The notes under the pieces were generated by a model. The model ran no database searches, had not been told where the DNA came from, and saw only the letters and a program-made list of their open reading frames with translations. The translations under genes and the position numbers were made by a program. Positions 10,592-52,572 of a DNA stretch of 64,000 nucleotides are shown here, one piece after another. The DNA lies in contig NZ_FRCS01000021.1 in assembly GCF_900143005.1 (NCBI RefSeq), forward strand, positions 1 through 64,000. Reading direction: 5' to 3'. This DNA is from Cryptosporangium aurantiacum (GTDB taxonomy: Bacteria > Actinomycetota > Actinomycetes > Mycobacteriales > Cryptosporangiaceae). Within the stretch, counting starts at the first letter, position 1. Each line of letters starts with the position of its first letter.

Positions 10592-11497
10592 CTAGGACGC
10601 AGCTATTCGGTGAAGGGTGCGGCGGCCCAGCGCGCTCATCGTCGGGTTGGTCCGGGCGTAGTACCAGACGAGGCCCATCGCCTGTTCGAACGCCCAGGCC
10701 CGGCCGCGGGCCCAGTCCAGGTCGTCGCAGGCCAGCGCCGCGCGGAGTACCTCCCGCGGCCCGGTGCCGAGCAGATGCCAGGCCGAGACGAGATCGAGCG
10801 CCGGATCGGCTGGGCCGAGCCCTCCGACGTCCAGGACGCCGACCAGCCGACCGGAGGCGACAAGCACATTGCCGGGAATCAGGTCGCGGTGGCTCATCGT
10901 GTCGGGCCGATACCGAGGCAGACGGCGCCAGGTTGTCCACATCGAGCGCAGCCGCTCGACGTCCAGCAGTGATTGGCTCTGGCGGAAACAGGTCTCCATC
11001 CAGGCGTCCGATGCCCGCAGGTCGCCGCCGCGGCCGGGCCCGCTGAACGTCCGGCCGCGGATGTCGAGGCGCCGGACTCCGAGAATGAACTCAGCGAGAT
11101 CTTCCGCGAACTTGTCCGACATCCCAGGATCGTCGTCGATCGCGGTGGTCCCCGGGATCCACGTCTGGACCGACCAGGGCAAGGGATAGCCCAAGCCGGG
11201 TTCGCCCAGCGCCAGCGGCTCCGGCGTCGGGAACCGCGTCCGGCCGGTCAACTCCCCGGCGGCTCGCGCCTCGGCTTCCAGCTGGTGTCGCATTGCCTCG
11301 GGGTCGCCGGGCGCGAGCGGAAACCGCGCTACGAAACGATCGCCGAGCCTGAACAACGCGTTCACTGTGCCGGTACTCGCCACCGGATTGACCGGCAGCC
11401 CGGCCCACCGAGGAAATTGGGCGGCGACAAGCCTGCCGACAACGTCCGTCGGTACCGAAAGCTGACCCGGATGCACACCGCGAACCTGCCGGGCCAT
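10592..11497 (-). CDS. Aminoglycoside phosphotransferase (APH) family kinase
   Basis: A 301-residue APH/choline-kinase fold protein. The nucleotide-binding N-lobe includes ALFRLGDRFVARFPL and the C-lobe carries the catalytic loop HRDLIPGNVL (His203, Asp205, Asn210) and the metal-binding DVGG (Asp223) followed by GPADPALDL. Family members phosphorylate small hydroxylated substrates, including aminoglycosides and macrolides, but many chromosomal copies act on unknown metabolites. Nothing in the context marks it as a resistance gene. It is convergent with the beta-propeller gene; the next gene lies 33 bases upstream on the same strand. Confidence 0.88.
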   Translation of the reverse strand: MARQVRGVHPGQLSVPTDVVGRLVAAQFPRWAGLPVNPVASTGTVNALFRLGDRFVARFPLAPGDPEAMRHQLEAEARAAGELTGRTRFPTPEPLALGEPGLGYPLPWSVQTWIPGTTAIDDDPGMSDKFAEDLAEFILGVRRLDIRGRTFSGPGRGGDLRASDAWMETCFRQSQSLLDVERLRSMWTTWRRLPRYRPDTMSHRDLIPGNVLVASGRLVGVLDVGGLGPADPALDLVSAWHLLGTGPREVLRAALACDDLDWARGRAWAFEQAMGLVWYYARTNPTMSALGRRTLHRIAAS

Positions 11498-11529
11498 CTC
11501 TGATCACGCAATCAGATTCCTACGCAGGC

Positions 11530-11802
11530 TCAGTCGCTGGTCTGCGGTGAGCTGGGCGCCCGCTGTTGCAGCAGCGTCGGCGTCGAGATCGACCACTCCT
11601 TGACCTGGCCCCATTCGATCCGCACCGCGGGCCGATCTTCGTCCAGGCACCGGTGGTACCGCGGCACCCGACGCCCGAAGTTGACCTCGACCTTGGCCCG
11701 GACGTCGTCCTCGCCGCGGCCGAACATCCGGATCGGGTAGGTCGCGTCATCGATGGTGAGACCGAAGCCGTATTCGGCAGGGGTACGCAAGCCACGAGCC
11801 AT
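11530..11802 (-). CDS. Small conserved-looking hypothetical protein
   Basis: A 90-residue protein using ATG 11802 (MARGLRTPAEYGFGLTIDDATYPIRMFGRGEDDVRAKVEV); a longer start at 11847 is possible. It looks like a compact alpha/beta domain with several charged residues, one cysteine, no signal and no membrane segment. It sits 33 bases upstream of the APH-like kinase on the same strand, so the two may be cotranscribed. The family is not recognised. Confidence 0.6.
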   Translation of the reverse strand: MARGLRTPAEYGFGLTIDDATYPIRMFGRGEDDVRAKVEVNFGRRVPRYHRCLDEDRPAVRIEWGQVKEWSISTPTLLQQRAPSSPQTSD

Positions 11803-11953
11803 GCCCGACAGGATACGTACATGCGTTCGATAAAGTCGAGACCTCAAGGGGATTTCGACCCCAAGGTGGATCAGACACTCGCCGGGGCGGCAGGGCTGAG
11901 AACCCCGCCGCCCCGGGACCGGTCAGGCGTCCGGATGCAGGCGCAGCAGTTCG

Positions 11954-12436
11954 TTACTGCCTCCACTGCTCCGTCGGCGATACACCGGGGAGCGGCTTGC
12001 CAATCAGGGCCAGCGGGAGGAAGAAGCAGACCTGGCCGATGGCCATGATCAAGGTGGCGAGCGCCTTGTCGTCGTACTGCTCGGACGCTCGGGTGTACAG
12101 CTGGTCGGGGACGCGCTCTCCCGACGGGCTGACGGTGAGCACAGCCTCGACCAGCTCCAGCGCGACCCGTTCGGCAGCGGTGAAGTAGGGCGCGTCTCGC
12201 CAGGACGCCACGGCGGTGATGCTTTCTTCGCTGATGCCGGCCTTCCGGAGGTTGCCGGTGTGCAGCATCGTCAGGTACGTGCTGCCGACGATCTGGCCGG
12301 CGCGTAGCTGCACCAGACCGATGGTGGTCTGCGGGATCGTCCCGTTGGCAGTCGCCTTGAACAGGGCGCCGCCGATGTCCTTGAGCTCGGGAACCAGGAC
12401 GGCGGGGTTGGGCAGGCGCGACTCGGTGGTGTTCAC
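11954..12436 (-). CDS. Carboxymuconolactone decarboxylase (AhpD-like) protein lacking the CxxC
   Basis: A 160-residue member of the CMD/AhpD family, started at GTG 12436 because AGAAGGG precedes it. The core helix normally reads GCxxCxxxH; here it is GSTYLTMLH, so the redox cysteines are Ser52 and Leu55 while His59 remains. The rest is well conserved (ASWRDAPYFTAAERVALELVEAV; DDKALATLIMAIGQVCFFLPLA). Alkylhydroperoxidase chemistry is therefore unlikely. CMD proteins are typical partners of ECF41 sigma factors, and such a sigma gene is divergent from this one. Both genes are preceded by the same promoter-like motif, so this is probably the sigma factor's main target. Confidence 0.85.
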   Translation of the reverse strand: MNTTESRLPNPAVLVPELKDIGGALFKATANGTIPQTTIGLVQLRAGQIVGSTYLTMLHTGNLRKAGISEESITAVASWRDAPYFTAAERVALELVEAVLTVSPSGERVPDQLYTRASEQYDDKALATLIMAIGQVCFFLPLALIGKPLPGVSPTEQWRQ

Positions 12437-12503: not shown

Positions 12504-12536
12504 GGTGCGGCGTTGGATCTCACCGGGGCGTTGCGT

Positions 12537-12563
12537 GGTCACCTTTGGGCGGTTCGCCGCGTC
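12537..12563 (+). promoter_or_regulatory. ECF41-type promoter for the sigma factor gene
   Basis: On the plus strand GGTCACC (12537-12543) is followed after exactly 16 bases by CGTC (12560-12563), the same motif and spacing as the divergent promoter at 12477-12503. The sigma gene starts at 12601. Two identical bipartite motifs back to back imply that the sigma factor drives both itself and its CMD partner. Confidence 0.7.
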
Positions 12564-12600
12564 AGCGGTACGACGCTGCCGAGAGAGAAGGAACGCCGCC

Positions 12601-13497
12601 GTGACGCCTCAGGATTTTCTGGCCGTCCAGTTCGAGGGACACCGCTCGCACCTGAGAGCGGTCGCCTACCGCATGCTCGGGTCGCTGAGCGAGGCCGACG
12701 ACGCGGTGCAGGAAGCTTGGCTGCGGCTGGCGCGTTCGGACTCCGGTGCCATCGACAATCTGGGTGGCTGGCTGACCACCGTGGTCGGCCGAGTCTGCCT
12801 GGACATGCTGCGGAGTCGTAAGGCTCGACGCGAGGAGTCGCTGGAGGATTGGCTGCCCGATCCGGTGGTCGGCCGTGAGGACGCCTCCGATCCGGAGCAG
12901 GAGGTGTTGCTGGCCGATTCGGTGGGCCTAGCGCTGTTGGTCGTGCTGGACTCCTTGCCCCCGGCCGAACGGCTGGCGCTCGTGCTCCATGACATGTTCG
13001 GATTGCCGTTCGAGCAGATAGCGCCGATCGTGGATCGGACCCCCTCGGCGGCCAAGAAGCTCGCCAGCCGGGCGCGCCAGCGAGTCCGCGGCGCGGCCCC
13101 GGAGCCCGACGCCGATCTGAGCGGCCAGCGCCGCGTGGTGGAGGCTTTCCTCGCCGCCGCGCGCGGCGGCGACCTCGAAGCGCTGGTGTCGATTCTCGAT
13201 CCGGACGTGGTGCTTCGCGCCGACGGCGGGGTGCTCACCGGCGGCATGAAGGCAATCCGGGGCGCCGCGGCTGTCTCCGGGCAGCTCGCCACCTTCCAGC
13301 GCATGGCCTCCAGCGCCGCCACGTATCCGGCGCGCGTCAACGGCCTCGCCGGCCTGGTCAACACCGTCGATGATCAGCTGATCTCCGTCATGAGCTTCAC
13401 GGTCTCCGACGGCAAGATCGCCGCGATCGACATCCTGTCCGACCCCGGCCGGCTTGCCCGGCTCAACCTCACCCACCCGGGCGGCGGGTCGAAGTGA
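12601..13497 (+). CDS. ECF41-type RNA polymerase sigma factor with SnoaL-like C-terminus
   Basis: A 298-residue sigma factor. Region 2 spans about residues 5-75 (HRSHLRAVAYRMLGSLSEADDAVQEAWLRL), the linker holds the ECF41 signature WLPDPVV (residue 84 on), and region 4 spans about 108-165 (LPPAERLALVLHDMFGLPFEQIAPIVDRTPSAAKKLASRAR). A SnoaL/NTF2-like C-terminal extension follows (about 175-290). In ECF41 proteins this extension controls activity in place of an anti-sigma factor. The usual DGGGK and NPDKL motifs appear in altered form (DGGVLTGGMK, SDPGRLARL). It is divergent from a CMD-family gene. GTG 12601 has GAAGGAA upstream; the longer in-frame start would overlap the promoter. Confidence 0.9.
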   Translation: MTPQDFLAVQFEGHRSHLRAVAYRMLGSLSEADDAVQEAWLRLARSDSGAIDNLGGWLTTVVGRVCLDMLRSRKARREESLEDWLPDPVVGREDASDPEQEVLLADSVGLALLVVLDSLPPAERLALVLHDMFGLPFEQIAPIVDRTPSAAKKLASRARQRVRGAAPEPDADLSGQRRVVEAFLAAARGGDLEALVSILDPDVVLRADGGVLTGGMKAIRGAAAVSGQLATFQRMASSAATYPARVNGLAGLVNTVDDQLISVMSFTVSDGKIAAIDILSDPGRLARLNLTHPGGGSK

Positions 13498-15822: not shown

Positions 15823-17328
15823 TCACGCCAAGGGCGCGGAGACCTCGAACGAGGCCGCGGCGCGGAACGCCGGGCTGCTGTCCGGCCGGTCGATCCAGAG
15901 TTCGTCGCCACGCAGGTGGAGGTATCGGTCCGGGTAGTTCGTCGATTGGAACGACACCGATCGGCGCGTGGCGCCCGTACGAGCGCAGAACGTGACGTCC
16001 TGCCGGAAGATTTCGGATCGGTCGTCGTGGTCGAGCCGGACGCGAAACGCGAAGTGCCGCAGATAGCGGCCCGAGGCGTCGCGGAATGACCGGCACGAGG
16101 GGTCGCTAAGGCCTCTCACCACGGTGAACGTCGCCTCCCGCCGGGACGCTCCGGAGCTGGATCGGCTCACGGGGGTGACGGCGGCCAGGTCGTCGACCGC
16201 CCGCACGTACCGATCCGGGTGCGCGACCGACCGGAGCGACCGGGAACCGGACAGACTCAGCGGCGCCGAGGCTGGTGACGCCACCGCGGTCGAACTGGAC
16301 GGCGCGCGTGGAGAACTGCTCGCCGACGGGGTCGTCGCAGCGGACGTTGCCCGCGCGGGCGACGGGGAGGCTGAGGGGGCCGCGGGCCCGATGCGCGTCG
16401 AGGTGGGCTCGGGTTGCGTCTTCCGGCTGTCGGCGTACGCCAGCAACGTGCTGATCGTCAGCACGACGGCGCCGGTGACCGCGATGAACCGGGCCGCCGT
16501 CGCCACCCATGGAATTTCCGCAGCGCGCCGTGCTCGGTCGATGAGCGCCGCACCCCAGGAACCGCCGGCCGGCTCCGGCGTTCGGTCGCACCGCGCGAGC
16601 AGTTCCTCGACGAGTGCGGGCGGTGGCGCCAACAACGGGCTGCCGCGCATGAGACGGTCGGCCGGGATCAGGTCGTCCGCTCGCGCCGAACACGTCGAGC
16701 AGTTTGTGGCGTGCCGCGTGATCTGACGACGTTGCCGATCGGACGGACGGCCGTCCCAATGCCGCAGCAGATCCGCCAGCTCCGGACACGGCGGCGCCGC
16801 GCTGAGCGTCCGAATTGTTGTTCTGGCGTCGTTGAAGTGGGCCTCGACCTGCCGAAGGCGGGTTTCGGCTTGCGCGGGCGTGAGCCCGCAGGCGGCGATC
16901 ATCTCTGCGCGGTTGAGTTCGCCGGACGCCTCCAGCCACCAGAACGAGAGCAGTGCGCGATCGTCGGCGACCAGCCATTGGACGGCGGCGTTCGCCTCTT
17001 CCCGCTGGTCGTGCGGATCGACCTGGACCGCAGGCCGGCCCGTGTCGCGCGGATTCCCGGCCTCCTCGGCTGCCCAGAGGAACCGCATCGCGGTGCCCAG
17101 CAGCCACGGCCGGAAGCTATCCGGCTCGGCCAGTCCTGGCATGCCGGAAGCGACGAGCGTGACGGTGTGGCCCAGCACATTGCCGACGTCGACCGTGGGA
17201 CTCGCCGCGCGGACGACCAGCGTGTAGAGCAGCGGCAGATGGGCGGTGACGAGCGTCCTCATAGCCCGGACGTCGCCGTCCTGAGCCGCTTGCACCATCG
17301 CCGGACTCGGTAACGGTGTCGATGCCAC
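15823..17328 (-). CDS. Sigma-70-like / zinc-finger / TM / AbfB fusion protein
   Basis: A 501-residue multidomain protein. Residues 8-90 and 112-172 resemble ECF sigma regions 2 and 4 (AAQDGDVRAMRTLVTAHLP; LNRAEMIAACGLTPAQAETRLRQVEAH). Next is a putative anti-sigma-type zinc site, HxxxCxxC (His206, Cys210, Cys213), in RQRRQITRHATNCSTCSARADDLIPADRL. A single membrane helix follows (about 276-298, ARFIAVTGAVVLTISTLLAYA), then a Pro/Ser/Ala linker (about 302-365). The extracellular C-terminus (about 370-501) is AbfB-like, a beta-trefoil carbohydrate-binding fold: SLRSVAHPDRYVRAVDD, CRSFRDASGRYLRHFAFRV, FQSTNYPDRYLHLRGDELWI. The arrangement suggests a membrane-tethered regulator sensing polysaccharide. 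It could instead be a degenerate sigma domain that no longer binds DNA. Confidence 0.82.
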   Translation of the reverse strand: MASTPLPSPAMVQAAQDGDVRAMRTLVTAHLPLLYTLVVRAASPTVDVGNVLGHTVTLVASGMPGLAEPDSFRPWLLGTAMRFLWAAEEAGNPRDTGRPAVQVDPHDQREEANAAVQWLVADDRALLSFWWLEASGELNRAEMIAACGLTPAQAETRLRQVEAHFNDARTTIRTLSAAPPCPELADLLRHWDGRPSDRQRRQITRHATNCSTCSARADDLIPADRLMRGSPLLAPPPALVEELLARCDRTPEPAGGSWGAALIDRARRAAEIPWVATAARFIAVTGAVVLTISTLLAYADSRKTQPEPTSTRIGPAAPSASPSPARATSAATTPSASSSPRAPSSSTAVASPASAPLSLSGSRSLRSVAHPDRYVRAVDDLAAVTPVSRSSSGASRREATFTVVRGLSDPSCRSFRDASGRYLRHFAFRVRLDHDDRSEIFRQDVTFCARTGATRRSVSFQSTNYPDRYLHLRGDELWIDRPDSSPAFRAAASFEVSAPLA

Positions 17329-17455
17329 TCATCACCTCACACCAGCACGCTCCGCCACAACGAGCACAGCGGCCCCACAAGTCACATGGCACTGTGCTCA
17401 TCACTAAACAGGTTGTGCTCACGCATGCCAACTCGTTCGGCGTCATCCCGGCCAA

Positions 17456-34473: not shown

Positions 34474-35700
34474 TCAGCCCAGCGCCGCCGCCTTGCGCAG
34501 CAGCACTGAGCGTTCGCGCTGGTTGGCGCAGAGCCGGGCGGCCAGCTCCAGCTCGGCGCGCGCCTCCGGGCGTCGTCCGAGCCTGGTCAGCAGCTCGCCG
34601 CGTACGGTCGGGACCAGATGCGAACCGGGGAGCCGGTCCAACGCGATCAGTTCGTCCACGATGGCCAGGGCTTGCGCCGGCCCGGAGGCCATCGCCACCG
34701 CGACGGCCCGGTTGAGCTCGACCACCGGCGAGGGTGCGACCCGGCCGAGCGCCTCGTAGAGCACGACGATCCGGTCCCAGTCGGTCTCCTCGACGGAGGG
34801 CGCCGACGCGTGGGCGGCGGCGATCGCGGCCTGCAGGCCGTACGGGCCGAGGCCGCGAGCCGACGCCGTGGACAGCGCGGTCAGCCCGCGGTGGATCGCC
34901 GAGAAGTCCCACCGCCGCCGGTCCTGGTCCTCCAACAGGACCGGCGAACCGTCCGGGCCGGTCCGGGCCGGGAAGCGCGCGGCCGTCAGCTCGCACAGCG
35001 CGAGCAGGCCGTGCACCTCCGGCTCGGTCGGCTGCAGCGCGGCCAGCGTGCGGACCAGCCGAATCGCTTCGTACGCGAGGTCGGGGCGCAGCAGCCGGTC
35101 ACCCGACGTGGCCGTCGACCCCTCGGTGAAGATCACGTACAGGACGCTGAGCACGCCGCCCAGCCGCTCCCGGCGTTCGTCGGCCGGCGGCAGCTCGAAC
35201 GGCACCCCGGCCGCCGCGATCGTCTTTTTGCCCCGGGTGATGCGGGCCTGCACGGTCGGCACGGGGACGAGGAACGCGCGGGCGATCTCCTCGCTGGACA
35301 GGCCGCCGACCACGCGCAGGGTCAGCGCCACCCGAGCCTCGGGGGAGAGGACCGGGTGGCAACTGATGAACATCAGCGCAAGGACGTCGTCGTCGATCCT
35401 GTCGGGGTCGATGTCTTCGTCGGCCGCTGAGCCGATCACCGGATCGGCCGCCAGCAGGGCGTATCGGTCCTGGAGGGCGGCCCGGCGGCGGATCGCGTCG
35501 ATCGCCCGCCGCCGGGCGGTGGCCATCAGCCAGCCGGCCGGATTGTCCGGAGCGGCCAGCGGCCACGACACCAACGCATCGGCCACCGCCTCCTGGGCCG
35601 CGTCCTCGGCCAGCCCGAAATCGCCGGTGAACCGGGTCAGCGCGGCGACGATCCGCGCCGACTCGATCCGCCAGACGGCCTCGATGTCGGCCGTACCCAT
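34474..35700 (-). CDS. ECF42-type sigma factor with TPR-like C-terminus (module A)
   Basis: A 408-residue sigma factor. Region 2 lies near residues 10-75 (RIVAALTRFTGDFGLAEDAAQEAVADALVSW... NPAGWLMATARRRAIDAIRRR), region 4 near 115-165 (LSPEARVALTLRVVGGLSSEEIARAFLVPVPTVQARITRGKKTI). A 220-residue helical, TPR-like extension carries the family signatures (YVIFTEG, EVHGLLALCELTAAR, AAIAAAHA, DRIVVLYEAL, PSPVVELNRAVAVA). ECF42 factors rely on this extension and lack anti-sigma factors. Its start overlaps the stop of the DGPF/YCII gene in TGATG. A matching TGTCGA/CGAC promoter precedes that gene, implying autoregulation. Confidence 0.92.
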   Translation of the reverse strand: MGTADIEAVWRIESARIVAALTRFTGDFGLAEDAAQEAVADALVSWPLAAPDNPAGWLMATARRRAIDAIRRRAALQDRYALLAADPVIGSAADEDIDPDRIDDDVLALMFISCHPVLSPEARVALTLRVVGGLSSEEIARAFLVPVPTVQARITRGKKTIAAAGVPFELPPADERRERLGGVLSVLYVIFTEGSTATSGDRLLRPDLAYEAIRLVRTLAALQPTEPEVHGLLALCELTAARFPARTGPDGSPVLLEDQDRRRWDFSAIHRGLTALSTASARGLGPYGLQAAIAAAHASAPSVEETDWDRIVVLYEALGRVAPSPVVELNRAVAVAMASGPAQALAIVDELIALDRLPGSHLVPTVRGELLTRLGRRPEARAELELAARLCANQRERSVLLRKAAALG

Positions 35701-36113
35701 CAGACCCGGCCGGTGCTCTCGGCCCGTGCCTCGACGGACCCCGTGGCGTCCTGGGGCGTCTCGTCGTCGCCGGCCACCCGCCGGACCTCGATCTTGGACC
35801 CGCGGGCGGCCGGCACCCGCTTGGCCCACTCGACCGCCTCCTGCTTCGAGACGACGTCGAGCAGGAAATAGCCCCCGAACAGTTCCTTGGTCTCGCCGTA
35901 CGGTCCGTCCGTGACCACCGGGGCCTCGCCGCTGAAGTCGACCACGACGCCCTGGCTCGGAAGGTCCAGGCCCTCCGCCGCCAGCAGAACGCCGGCCTTG
36001 ACCATCTCCTCGATGAACTGCCGGGTCGAGGCCATCAGCTCGTCGATGTCGGCCATCAGCGCTGCGTTCGACTCGTCGGTGCCCCGCATGATCAGCATGT
36101 ACTTCGGCATCAC
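35700..36113 (-). CDS. DGPF/YCII-family protein (ECF42 partner, module A)
   Basis: A 137-residue YCII-like protein with the DGPF motif in the form VTDGPYGETKELFGGYFLLDV, and N-terminal strand KYMLIMRGTDESNAAL. The last 30 residues are a disordered, acidic tail. It is translationally coupled to the ECF42 sigma gene (TGATG), the standard pairing for this sigma group. DGPF proteins are the usual regulon members; their chemistry is not established. ATG 36113 has GAGGAGAACG upstream. Confidence 0.92.
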   Translation of the reverse strand: MMPKYMLIMRGTDESNAALMADIDELMASTRQFIEEMVKAGVLLAAEGLDLPSQGVVVDFSGEAPVVTDGPYGETKELFGGYFLLDVVSKQEAVEWAKRVPAARGSKIEVRRVAGDDETPQDATGSVEARAESTGRV

Positions 36114-36159
36114 GTTCTCCTCGTCCGGCGGGGTCGCGTCTCGGCCCTCGCACCCACAC

Positions 36160-51426: not shown

Positions 51427-52572
51427 TCAACGGCGCAGCTGAGCGTTGAGCCGGGCGGCCTGTCGCGTGAGGTGGCCGCGTTCGGCGAGGTTGGGGGCCG
51501 ATTGGGCGGCTTCGGCGTAGAGCCGTGCGGCGGTGACCCGGTCACCGTCGCGTTCGTGCAGGTAGGCCGCGGCGGCGGTGTAGCGGGGCAGGGCGGGGTC
51601 GAGGTCCGCGAGGGCGGCCAGACCGGCGCGCGGGCCGTCGGCCTCGCCGACCGCGACGGCCCGGTTGAGGCGGGCCACCGGGCTGTCGGTGAGGCGCACC
51701 AACTCGTCGTACCACTCGACGATCTGCACCCAGTCGGTCTCCGCGGCGGTCGGGGCGTCGGCGTGCAGCGCGGCGATCGCCGCCTGGGCCTGGAACTCGC
51801 CCAGTCGGTCGCGGGCGAGCGCGGCCTGGAGGATGGCGACGCCCTCGGCGATCAGGCCGGTGTTCCACCGGCTGCGGTCCTGCTCGGCGAGGGGAACGAG
51901 CCTGCCGTCGGCGCCGGTCCGAGCCGGGCGGCGTGCGTGGTGCAGCAGCATCAGCGCGAGCAGGCCCGCCACCTCCGCGTGGTCGACCACGGCCGCCAGC
52001 CGGCGGGTCAGCCGGATCGCCTCGGCGGCGAGGTCGACGTCGCCGGAGTAGCCCTCGTTGAAGACCAGGTACAGCACGCGCAGGACGGTGGCGACGTCGC
52101 CCGGCTGGTTGAACCGGACGTCGGAGACCGTGCGTTTGGCCCGGCTGATCCGCTGGGCCATCGTCGCCTCCGGCACCAGGTAGGCCTGCGCGATCTGGCG
52201 CGTGGTCAGGCCGCCGACCGCGCGCAGCGTGAGCGCCACGGCCGACCCCGGCGTCAACGACGGGTGCGCGCAGAGGAAGTACAGCTGGAGCGTGTCGTCC
52301 GCTGCCTCGGTGGGGCCGGGCTGAGGCTCCCGATCGACGACCTCCTCGCGCTGCCGCCGGGAGGCGTCGGCCCGGGCGGCGTCGAGGAACTTCCGCCAGG
52401 CCACGGTGACCAGCCAGCCCTGCGGGTCGCGCGGCGGATCGTCCGGCCATCCGCGAACGGCTTCGATCAGGGCGTCCTGCACGGCATCCTCGGCCGCCGA
52501 GAAGTCGGCGCCACGACGGACGAGGATGCCGATCACCGCGGGTACGAGCGCCCGCAGCAGCGACTCGTTCAT
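51427..52572 (-). CDS. ECF42-type sigma factor with TPR-like C-terminus (module B)
   Basis: A 381-residue second ECF42 factor: region 2 near residues 1-65 (LVPAVIGILVRRGADFSAAEDAVQDALIEAVRGW... DPQGWLVTVAWRKFLDAARAD), region 4 (LTPGSAVALTLRAVGGLTTRQIAQAYLVPEATMAQRISRAKRTV), and the TPR-like extension with LYLVFNEGYSGD, AEVAGLLALMLLHHARRPAR, AAIAALHADA and PVARLNRAVAVGEADGP. Its start overlaps the DGPF gene stop (ATGA). It differs clearly from module A (34474-35700), so the two are old paralogues, but their promoters share one motif. Confidence 0.92.
   Translation of the reverse strand: MNESLLRALVPAVIGILVRRGADFSAAEDAVQDALIEAVRGWPDDPPRDPQGWLVTVAWRKFLDAARADASRRQREEVVDREPQPGPTEAADDTLQLYFLCAHPSLTPGSAVALTLRAVGGLTTRQIAQAYLVPEATMAQRISRAKRTVSDVRFNQPGDVATVLRVLYLVFNEGYSGDVDLAAEAIRLTRRLAAVVDHAEVAGLLALMLLHHARRPARTGADGRLVPLAEQDRSRWNTGLIAEGVAILQAALARDRLGEFQAQAAIAALHADAPTAAETDWVQIVEWYDELVRLTDSPVARLNRAVAVGEADGPRAGLAALADLDPALPRYTAAAAYLHERDGDRVTAARLYAEAAQSAPNLAERGHLTRQAARLNAQLRR

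Follow-up and report, generated by a model that had tools for sequence, protein, structure and literature searches.

We analyzed a 64,000-nucleotide stretch of Cryptosporangium aurantiacum DNA (assembly GCF_900143005.1, contig NZ_FRCS01000021.1, positions 1 to 64,000; here called the window). At 15823-17328 it encodes a 501-residue protein that carries in one chain, from the N to the C terminus, a sigma-2-like domain, a sigma-4-like domain, a zinc anti-sigma (ZAS) domain, a membrane helix, a Ser/Pro linker, and an AbfB/CBM42 trefoil. One-chain layouts of this kind have been described before. What is new, judged from the sequences, is that this genus appears to have dismantled the sigma output while retaining the receptor. 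It is probable that the sigma half is a pseudo-sigma in some form. The narrower reading that the protein is a sugar-binding membrane receptor whose repurposed sigma mimic acts by contact with a partner, and not as a tethered transcription factor, seems to us evenly poised between right and wrong.

A first-pass annotation of the window had given the correct coordinates with no strand. It is the minus strand (17328 to 15823) that carries the open 501-residue frame, which begins with GTG, and the plus-strand reading of the same interval is interrupted by stops. Translation might instead begin at an internal codon closer to the conserved core. A frame error or a chance open reading frame was ruled out by four open homologues with 34 to 62% identity. 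The combination of sigma-descended, ZAS, membrane helix, and AbfB parts in one chain, as described in that annotation, was upheld. So was its single membrane helix: hydropathy gave one hydrophobic stretch in the protein, at residues 281 to 299, where the AlphaFold2 model has a helix (275 to 300) at low confidence, with pLDDT blocks of only 39 to 55.

The protein was compared with relatives from its own genus and beyond. Matches were present in three of the four genus genomes, its own (G000) included: the window gene, two genes in G001, and two in G003. The genome search of G002 gave no match to the window protein. A profile of the five genus sequences scanned across genomes returned 229 relatives, of which the best 80 were kept; 66 of these were framed and 55 of the 66 aligned, a choice that passed over near copies and two of the three frames cut by contig ends. 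The 55 relatives, the window protein, and L003 to L007 make up a 61-row alignment of an actinobacterial family. The window protein and L003 to L006 (the clade) form one side of a branch with support of 100/99 and a stem of 0.92, in a tree that flags long branches (L007, L006, L004, L013, L005, and L033) and cautions that some joins may be false. L007, which comes from a different genus within the taxonomic family, is counted among the 56 rows outside the clade. Pfam detected (E up to 0.01) Sigma70_r2 in 56 rows, CAP in 40, AbfB in 9, Glyco_hydro_cc in 7, and Sigma70_r4/r4_2 in 1. By these domain counts over the 61 rows, the family is constant inside and has exchangeable outside domains (CAP, AbfB, or glycosyl hydrolase). 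The window protein shares with it the N-terminal homology over sigma-2, sigma-4, and ZAS, the C-H-C-C ligands, the membrane helix, and an outside domain. Six intact AbfB members from Micromonosporaceae (L008 to L013) have the same domain order at 31 to 38% identity. L005 and L006 have no AbfB; the L005 frame (1477-2472; 331 residues) stops about 20 residues past the membrane helix, without any outside domain.

The first-pass annotation had assigned ECF (extracytoplasmic function) sigma-like regions to the N-terminal half and had named profile detection of regions 2 and 4 as the test. By that test the claim fails, as a Pfam scan of the window protein detected neither region; the homology itself was recovered through profiles of relatives. 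NCBIfam sigma models gave a best E of 0.0061, far under their cut-offs. Sigma70_r2 was found in none of the five clade rows and in all 56 others, with a trace in L003 (0.15) when E up to 10 was admitted. The silence of Pfam on region 4 says little because region 4 went undetected in 60 of the 61 family members, and the distinctive loss of the clade is that of region 2. A profile of 12 intact members matched the window protein at E 1.5e-54, compared with 1.5e-13 for the next best place in its genome (150 of 189 candidates scored), and hhalign joined the clade and intact profiles at E 6e-61 over 241 columns. In G001 to G003 the intact profile found, apart from the degenerate copies, nothing better than 2.9e-14. 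Among the candidates scored in this search (150 of 160 to 189 in G000, G001, and G003 and all 149 in G002), no intact family member was seen. The 12-member intact profile found 21 sigma sequences in the PDB at E up to 0.01, and a single intact member found 20 at E up to 1. In a control of equal depth, five intact members found 25 PDB sequences, every one named as a sigma factor or RpoE, whereas the five clade sequences found no PDB sigma sequence at E up to 1.

The AlphaFold2 model of the window protein was built from 17 input sequences, 16 of them intact relatives, and had a mean pLDDT of 73 and a pTM of 0.47, at which the modelled arrangement of domains is unreliable. Confidence within domains was mostly 74 to 92 for the sigma-like and ZAS helices and 76 to 92 for the trefoil; the linker was disordered. 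Residues 5 to 173 of the model matched SigW (5wur) with a VIA-align Z of 14.1 (rmsd 2.7, 154 of 157 aligned) and CnrH (4cxf) with a Z of 12.7 (rmsd 3.3, 153 aligned). SigW is the main support for the fold, since with helical folds a Z below about 13 may not be specific. Taken together, the intact-profile and hhalign matches, the SigW match, and the Pfam nondetection indicate that the sigma regions of the window protein are sigma-derived yet degenerate.

The degeneration falls on residues that are nearly invariant elsewhere in the family. Intact members carry DVDDVVQET in region 2.2, where the window protein has D50N, Q53G, and E54H. D50 is present in all 56 other rows versus one of the five clade rows, and Q53 in 55 of 56 (H in L007) versus none, with the region 2.2 alignment of L004 and L006 being uncertain. 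In the -35 helix of the window protein, H153 is replaced by Q, R160 by Q, and K162 by E, and D167 is gained. H153 is found in 54 of the 56 others and in no clade member; R160 is invariant among the others and is Q or E throughout the clade; position 162 is K or R in all 56 others and E in all five; and D167 occurs in none of the others and in every clade row. The net charge of the recognition helix ranges from -1 to +2 in the clade, compared with a mean of +3.0 (range, 1 to 4) in the others. Over residues 72 to 92 the window protein has a net charge of 0, against a family mean of +3.4, and the charge of region 2.4 is lowered in three clade rows (0, +1, and -1). The linker is 25 to 35 residues long in the clade and 43 on average (34 to 46) in the others. 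Considering columns at least 90% conserved among the 56 others, clade members keep 29 to 71% in sigma-2, 61 to 67% in sigma-4, and 71 to 81% in ZAS, whereas the median of the others is 97 to 100%; intact L013 keeps 81% of the conserved ZAS columns. Sigma70_r2 that can be detected, the core-binding residues of region 2.2, and a basic -35 helix, as expected of a working ECF sigma factor, are thus missing from the window protein.

Aligned with Escherichia coli RpoE, positions 160 and 162 fall on the two Arg residues of FRAR, which we take to be R176 and R178 if the chain has three extra residues. The contact roles given here to residues of region 2.2 and the -35 helix are partly general background and partly drawn from PMC7406223. 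According to that paper, R178 of RpoE touches the anti-sigma domain as well as the -35 element, and the beta-prime clamp helices are bound by regions 2.1 and 2.2 (PMC7406223).

Despite these losses the sigma half is under purifying selection between the window protein and L003, the closest pair. Pairwise omega values within the clade (Nei-Gojobori) were for this pair 0.29 in sigma-2, 0.29 in sigma-4, 0.27 in ZAS, 0.39 in the juxtamembrane region and helix, 0.89 in the linker (306 to 360), and 0.42 in AbfB. Sigma-2 omega against L005 was 0.48 to 0.57, and sigma-4 omega was 0.25 to 0.64 across all clade pairs. The frames are open in all five clade members, with no internal stops. A pseudogene was rejected on the low omega between the window protein and L003.

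The HxxxCxxC zinc site of anti-sigma type reported by the first-pass annotation was confirmed: H206-x3-C210-x2-C213, together with C181, is identical in all 61 family rows. Pfam zf-HC2 stayed below its threshold on the window protein (9.9 bits versus 22.2), and an NCBIfam anti-sigma model covered residues 196 to 300 at E 3.9e-5 (23.7 bits versus a cut-off of 100). The motif DLIPADRL-RG is invariant across the clade. Other ZAS positions have changed there: L198 is R in all five rows, W199 is lost in all five, and K201 is R in four and Q in one. Because these changes accompany those at sigma positions 160 and 162, which touch the anti-sigma domain, they could reflect a re-tuned intramolecular contact.

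The outside domain is well supported. Pfam assigned AbfB (PF05270) to residues 364 to 496 at E 1.4e-39, the sole AbfB match in the genome (assembly 98.46% complete). The modelled domain matched 1wd3 (VIA-align Z 17.1, rmsd 2.7, 136 aligned) and the CBM42 of 9fnk (Z 15.3, rmsd 1.9, 117 aligned); the VIA-align match list was occupied mainly by trefoil structures, and that of Foldseek was consistent with it. The trefoil proposed in the first-pass annotation is borne out by these matches. In AtAbf43C, the CBM42 beta pocket is formed by H70, Y73, and D89 and the gamma pocket by H118, N120, Y121, and D136 (PMC12493170). We mapped the beta and gamma pockets onto the family by pattern and spacing. The beta-pocket His and Asp are kept in the window protein as H425 and D444, with the same 19-residue spacing as H70 and D89 and with F in place of Y, and both are present in all nine AbfB rows. 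The gamma-pocket His is missing from all three clade AbfB rows and present in five of the six intact ones; the gamma-pocket Asp is missing from the window protein and L003 and present in L004 and four of the six intact rows. Because the beta His and Asp are kept and those of the gamma pocket lost, one arabinofuranose site is expected in the window trefoil.

Polysaccharide sensing, also suggested by the first-pass annotation, is plausible in the form of an arabinofuranosyl sensor, and the neighbors of the intact AbfB genes point the same way. GH10 homologues were found at four of these six loci, GH43 at three, and GH62 at two: L008 and L009 each have GH43 and GH10 nearby, L011 has GH43 and a GH10-GH62 protein, and L013 has GH10 and GH5. 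The neighbor of L010 is a GDSL esterase with CBM_4_9, and the one scanned neighbor of L012, where about 365 bases upstream of the gene were covered, is a GGDEF/EAL protein. By tblastn, GH10 occurred at 4 of 6 intact AbfB loci versus 0 of 74 other loci (Fisher p 9e-6) and, without L009, the locus of the query, at 3 of 5 versus 0 of 74 (p 1.3e-4), related genera being counted as independent in both tests. The GH10 xylanase at L008 (836-2246) is split across two frames in a draft contig.

Upstream of the intact genes we found a motif, GTTATC-N15/16-GGTCTC, in its strict form at 28 of the 53 loci examined (the 66 minus 13 without a start-anchor match) and with a single match elsewhere in the 1.195 Mb of these loci. 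The pattern was first spotted by eye in some loci, and a matrix built from 29 strict sites, which it then also scores, exceeded the maximum of 710 shuffles (10.4) in 58 of 71 genes (e.g., L014, L017, and L081). None of the clade genes exceeded it, with scores of -7.0 for the window gene, -1.4 for L003, -4.5 for L004, 8.6 for L005, and -6.4 for L006. The other genes under the maximum were five of the six intact AbfB genes together with L069, L076, and L080, which look like variant sites; the sixth intact AbfB gene, L011, scored 20.8 at an unusual distance. We infer from the sequences that GTTATC-N15/16-GGTCTCC is the self-promoter of family genes; its lack at the window gene was not used to exclude that gene from the family. 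With the final C, the motif was present as a single copy in five genomes and as two copies in a sixth, all six chosen because a family gene there carries it, and a reversed-pattern control gave no match. A whole-genome pattern search of G000, G001, and G003 found no copy. Such rarity, once or twice per genome in the six, makes the motif a handle for regulon finding. A second copy in the Rugosimonospora genome that is home to L015 (L137, at G031:C61:131455) lies away from the sigma gene and is a possible second target.

A different upstream element, of the form TTGGC[AG]-N17-TT[TG]AGT, could be aligned in three clade genes (Table 1). It was not called in a consensus scan, and visual inspection did not reveal it ahead of L004 and L006, two genes that have a different upstream block in common. 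A housekeeping promoter is an attractive interpretation of this pattern. A short plus-strand frame at 17456-17785 matches an alpha/beta hydrolase at its C-terminal end alone, below the Pfam threshold; lying next to the upstream region of the gene, it may be a leftover.

Table 1. Features of the window gene and its upstream region (coordinates in the window)
Feature	Coordinates	Strand	Basis
Whole gene, 501 aa	15823..17328	-	Open frame; 62% identity to the closest homologue in G001 across residues 3-497
Sigma-2-like domain, residues 10-92, degenerate	17053..17301	-	Profiles, alignment columns, model
Sigma-4-like helix-turn-helix domain, residues 114-176	16801..16989	-	Alignment columns, model, structure matches
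Zinc anti-sigma-like domain, residues 177-236; C181/H206/C210/C213; motif DLIPADRLxRG	16621..16800	-	Alignment, NCBIfam
Membrane helix, residues 281-299	16432..16488	-	Hydropathy; model helix 275-300, low pLDDT
Ser/Pro/Ala-rich linker, residues 301-360	16249..16428	-	Low pLDDT; weak constraint
AbfB/CBM42 beta-trefoil, residues 361-498	15835..16248	-	Pfam, fold matches, pocket pattern
Upstream element TTGGCA-N17-TTTAGT, candidate promoter or operator	17403..17431	-	Aligned in window gene, L003, and L005

The window gene is followed on the same strand by an SDR gene at 52 bp and then by a TetR gene. The sole sigma factor among ten Pfam-scanned frames of the window is encoded at 12505-13497, 2.3 kb away on the opposite strand; Pfam gives it regions 2 and 4 along with a SnoaL_2 trace, and we take this ECF sigma factor to be SigJ/ECF41-like. 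Two minus-strand frames farther off, 34474-36159 and 51427-52572, look by eye ECF sigma-like with long C-terminal extensions and are presumably ECF42-like. For the other clade loci, seven chosen frames were scanned. A GH36 melibiase (L104, 5981-8146) lies beside L005, and a GH120-insertion-domain protein and a GH2 protein (L105, 6009-7988 and 12622-15123) lie near L006. The one frame scanned beside L004 had no Pfam match. LOR and TIR proteins are encoded beside L003, the nearest homologue of the window protein, the TIR-domain protein at 10611-11978 (L102). GH43 genes also occur elsewhere in the genus, with 4, 1, 4, and 1 matches in G000 to G003; in G000 and in G002, three of the four exceed the cut-off.

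Several observations weigh against a sigma mimic that has given up transcription. The loss is graded, as L003 retains DVDDV in region 2.2 and L004 (+4) and L006 (+3) retain a basic region 2.4. L007, although counted among the 56, is itself divergent, keeping 42, 45, and 67% of the conserved columns in sigma-2, sigma-4, and ZAS, respectively. Between the two subgroups of the clade, sigma-2 omega is 0.77 to 1.06, so constraint on this domain is shown only for near pairs. The predicted fold leans on the intact relatives and would fit a working sigma factor of new specificity equally well. The motif score of L005 exceeds the 99th percentile of shuffles (7.7) without reaching their maximum, and loss of the motif from the clade does not prove loss of sigma function because it is also absent from five of the six intact AbfB members. 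By tblastn, GH10, GH43, and GH62 homologues were found at none of the five clade loci, window included, and the two clade members that do have sugar-enzyme neighbors, L005 and L006, are without AbfB. No convincing partner sigma factor adjoins the window gene among the ten neighboring frames scanned with Pfam. The weaker sigma-2 constraint between subgroups, which counts against the mimic, and the sugar-enzyme neighbors of L005 and L006, which count for it, together leave our weighting of the readings unchanged.

Much of this would suit a one-chain ECF sigma receptor that still works but whose promoter specificity has shifted, in which the -35-helix changes retune recognition and the rest of sigma-2 keeps core binding. 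The predicted sigma fold, the low omega of the sigma half against L003, the retained DVDDV and basic region 2.4, and the weak NCBIfam sigma trace are all in its favor, and the upstream element common to three clade genes could be the receptor's own new promoter. However, position 162 is reversed in charge and Q53 is lost in every clade member, the recognition helix has lost much of its positive charge, the linker is shortened, and the clade profile finds no PDB sigma factor; we consider such a receptor rather unlikely. We rate lower still a plain membrane anti-sigma factor, in which the sigma half is a structural prop and the zinc domain holds an ECF sigma factor encoded elsewhere. ZAS is among the best-kept parts (omega and the invariant DLIPADRL-RG), the NCBIfam anti-sigma model matches it, albeit below cut-off, and CBM42 on an anti-sigma factor has a precedent in RsgI5. 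Against it, the sigma-like half is constrained as strongly as ZAS between the window protein and L003, and the only sigma factor in the scanned neighborhood is the SnoaL-bearing one on the other strand. A decaying gene heading for loss is very improbable. One of the four genus genomes has no copy, L005 has lost its outside domain, and sigma-2 omega approaches 1 between subgroups, but all five frames are open, omega is 0.27 to 0.42 over the sigma, ZAS, and AbfB parts of the window protein and L003, and E162 and D167 are clade-specific invariants. As for the tethered transcription factor proposed by the first-pass annotation, we do not retain it for the window protein itself: all five clade members have other residues in place of Q53 and at the basic positions of the -35 helix, the clade profile recovers no PDB sigma factor, and the self-promoter motif does not rise above shuffles.

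Under the preferred reading of a receptor with a sigma mimic, the protein is a single-pass membrane receptor of an actinobacterial family whose design holds an ECF sigma factor, a zinc anti-sigma domain, a helix, and an exchangeable outside domain in one chain. The outside trefoil would dock on arabinofuranosyl side chains, as of arabinoxylan or arabinan. Binding of the sugar may change the membrane part or trigger its cleavage, as proposed for one-chain ECF receptors, and the cytoplasm would then receive the sigma mimic and the zinc domain. The mimic would act by protein-protein contact, holding or releasing another sigma or anti-sigma partner, and would start no transcription itself. A more specific version, by analogy with PhyR, is that of a membrane-tethered sigma mimic joined in cis to its own anti-sigma domain and controlled by a trefoil that binds arabinose, in effect a PhyR-like partner switch moved into the membrane, derived from an all-in-one sigma receptor that turned decoy within one genus. 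This version is tentative, and we regard it as on the unlikely side.

The family offers testable leads in a CBM42 with a known ligand type, a promoter-like motif, and the xylanase neighbors of the intact AbfB members. The window clade amounts to a natural experiment, with the receptor kept and its sigma output apparently taken apart, and it poses the question of what is left for such a receptor to do once the sigma factor is gone. The release of one-chain sigma receptors by outside sugars is an existing proposal that the family could help examine.

The one-chain layout, which headlined the first-pass annotation, is not new. Proteins with sigma, zinc, transmembrane, and carbohydrate-binding parts in one chain are known as ECF52, with ECF48 and ECF53 as kin, and their activation by proteolysis has been proposed (PMC8999054, PMC5826349, PMC10766802). 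Their hydrolase and carbohydrate-binding domains are predicted, with validation still to come according to a 2024 review (PMC10766802). Like the window protein, ECF52 (SCO4117) and ECF53 are actinobacterial and combine sigma, a zinc finger, a membrane helix, a proline-rich stretch, and an outside carbohydrate-binding domain; unlike in these groups, ECF53 being compared by description, the window sigma is degenerate. L130, which is SCO4117-like by layout and not a proven orthologue, carries Sigma70_r2, Sigma70_r4_2, zf-HC2, and NPCBM by Pfam. BLASTP detected no similarity between it and either the window protein or intact L008, a result that tentatively speaks against simple membership of the window protein in ECF52. 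The intact Micromonosporaceae members differ from the window protein in their intact region 2.2 and -35 helix and in the GH10 homologue at four of six loci. Among the papers listed in our literature searches, none describes a one-chain receptor whose sigma half is degenerate, which does not imply absence from print. RsgI5 of Clostridium thermocellum (9fnk) resembles the window protein in having CBM42 outside, a membrane helix, and an anti-sigma domain inside (PMC12203970, PMC4711584). It differs in its separate SigI partner, its different anti-sigma domain, and its lack of a sigma-like half. The sigma half itself is closest in kind to PhyR, whose sigma-like domain has the correct fold with degenerate core and promoter contacts and binds an anti-sigma factor (PMC8103513); the window protein likewise has a predicted sigma fold with degenerate contacts. 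However, PhyR, as a response regulator, contains a receiver domain, of which Pfam found none in the window protein at E up to 10, and it works with a separate NepR, whereas the window protein carries its sigma-like half in cis with a zinc anti-sigma domain, is membrane-bound, and bears AbfB.

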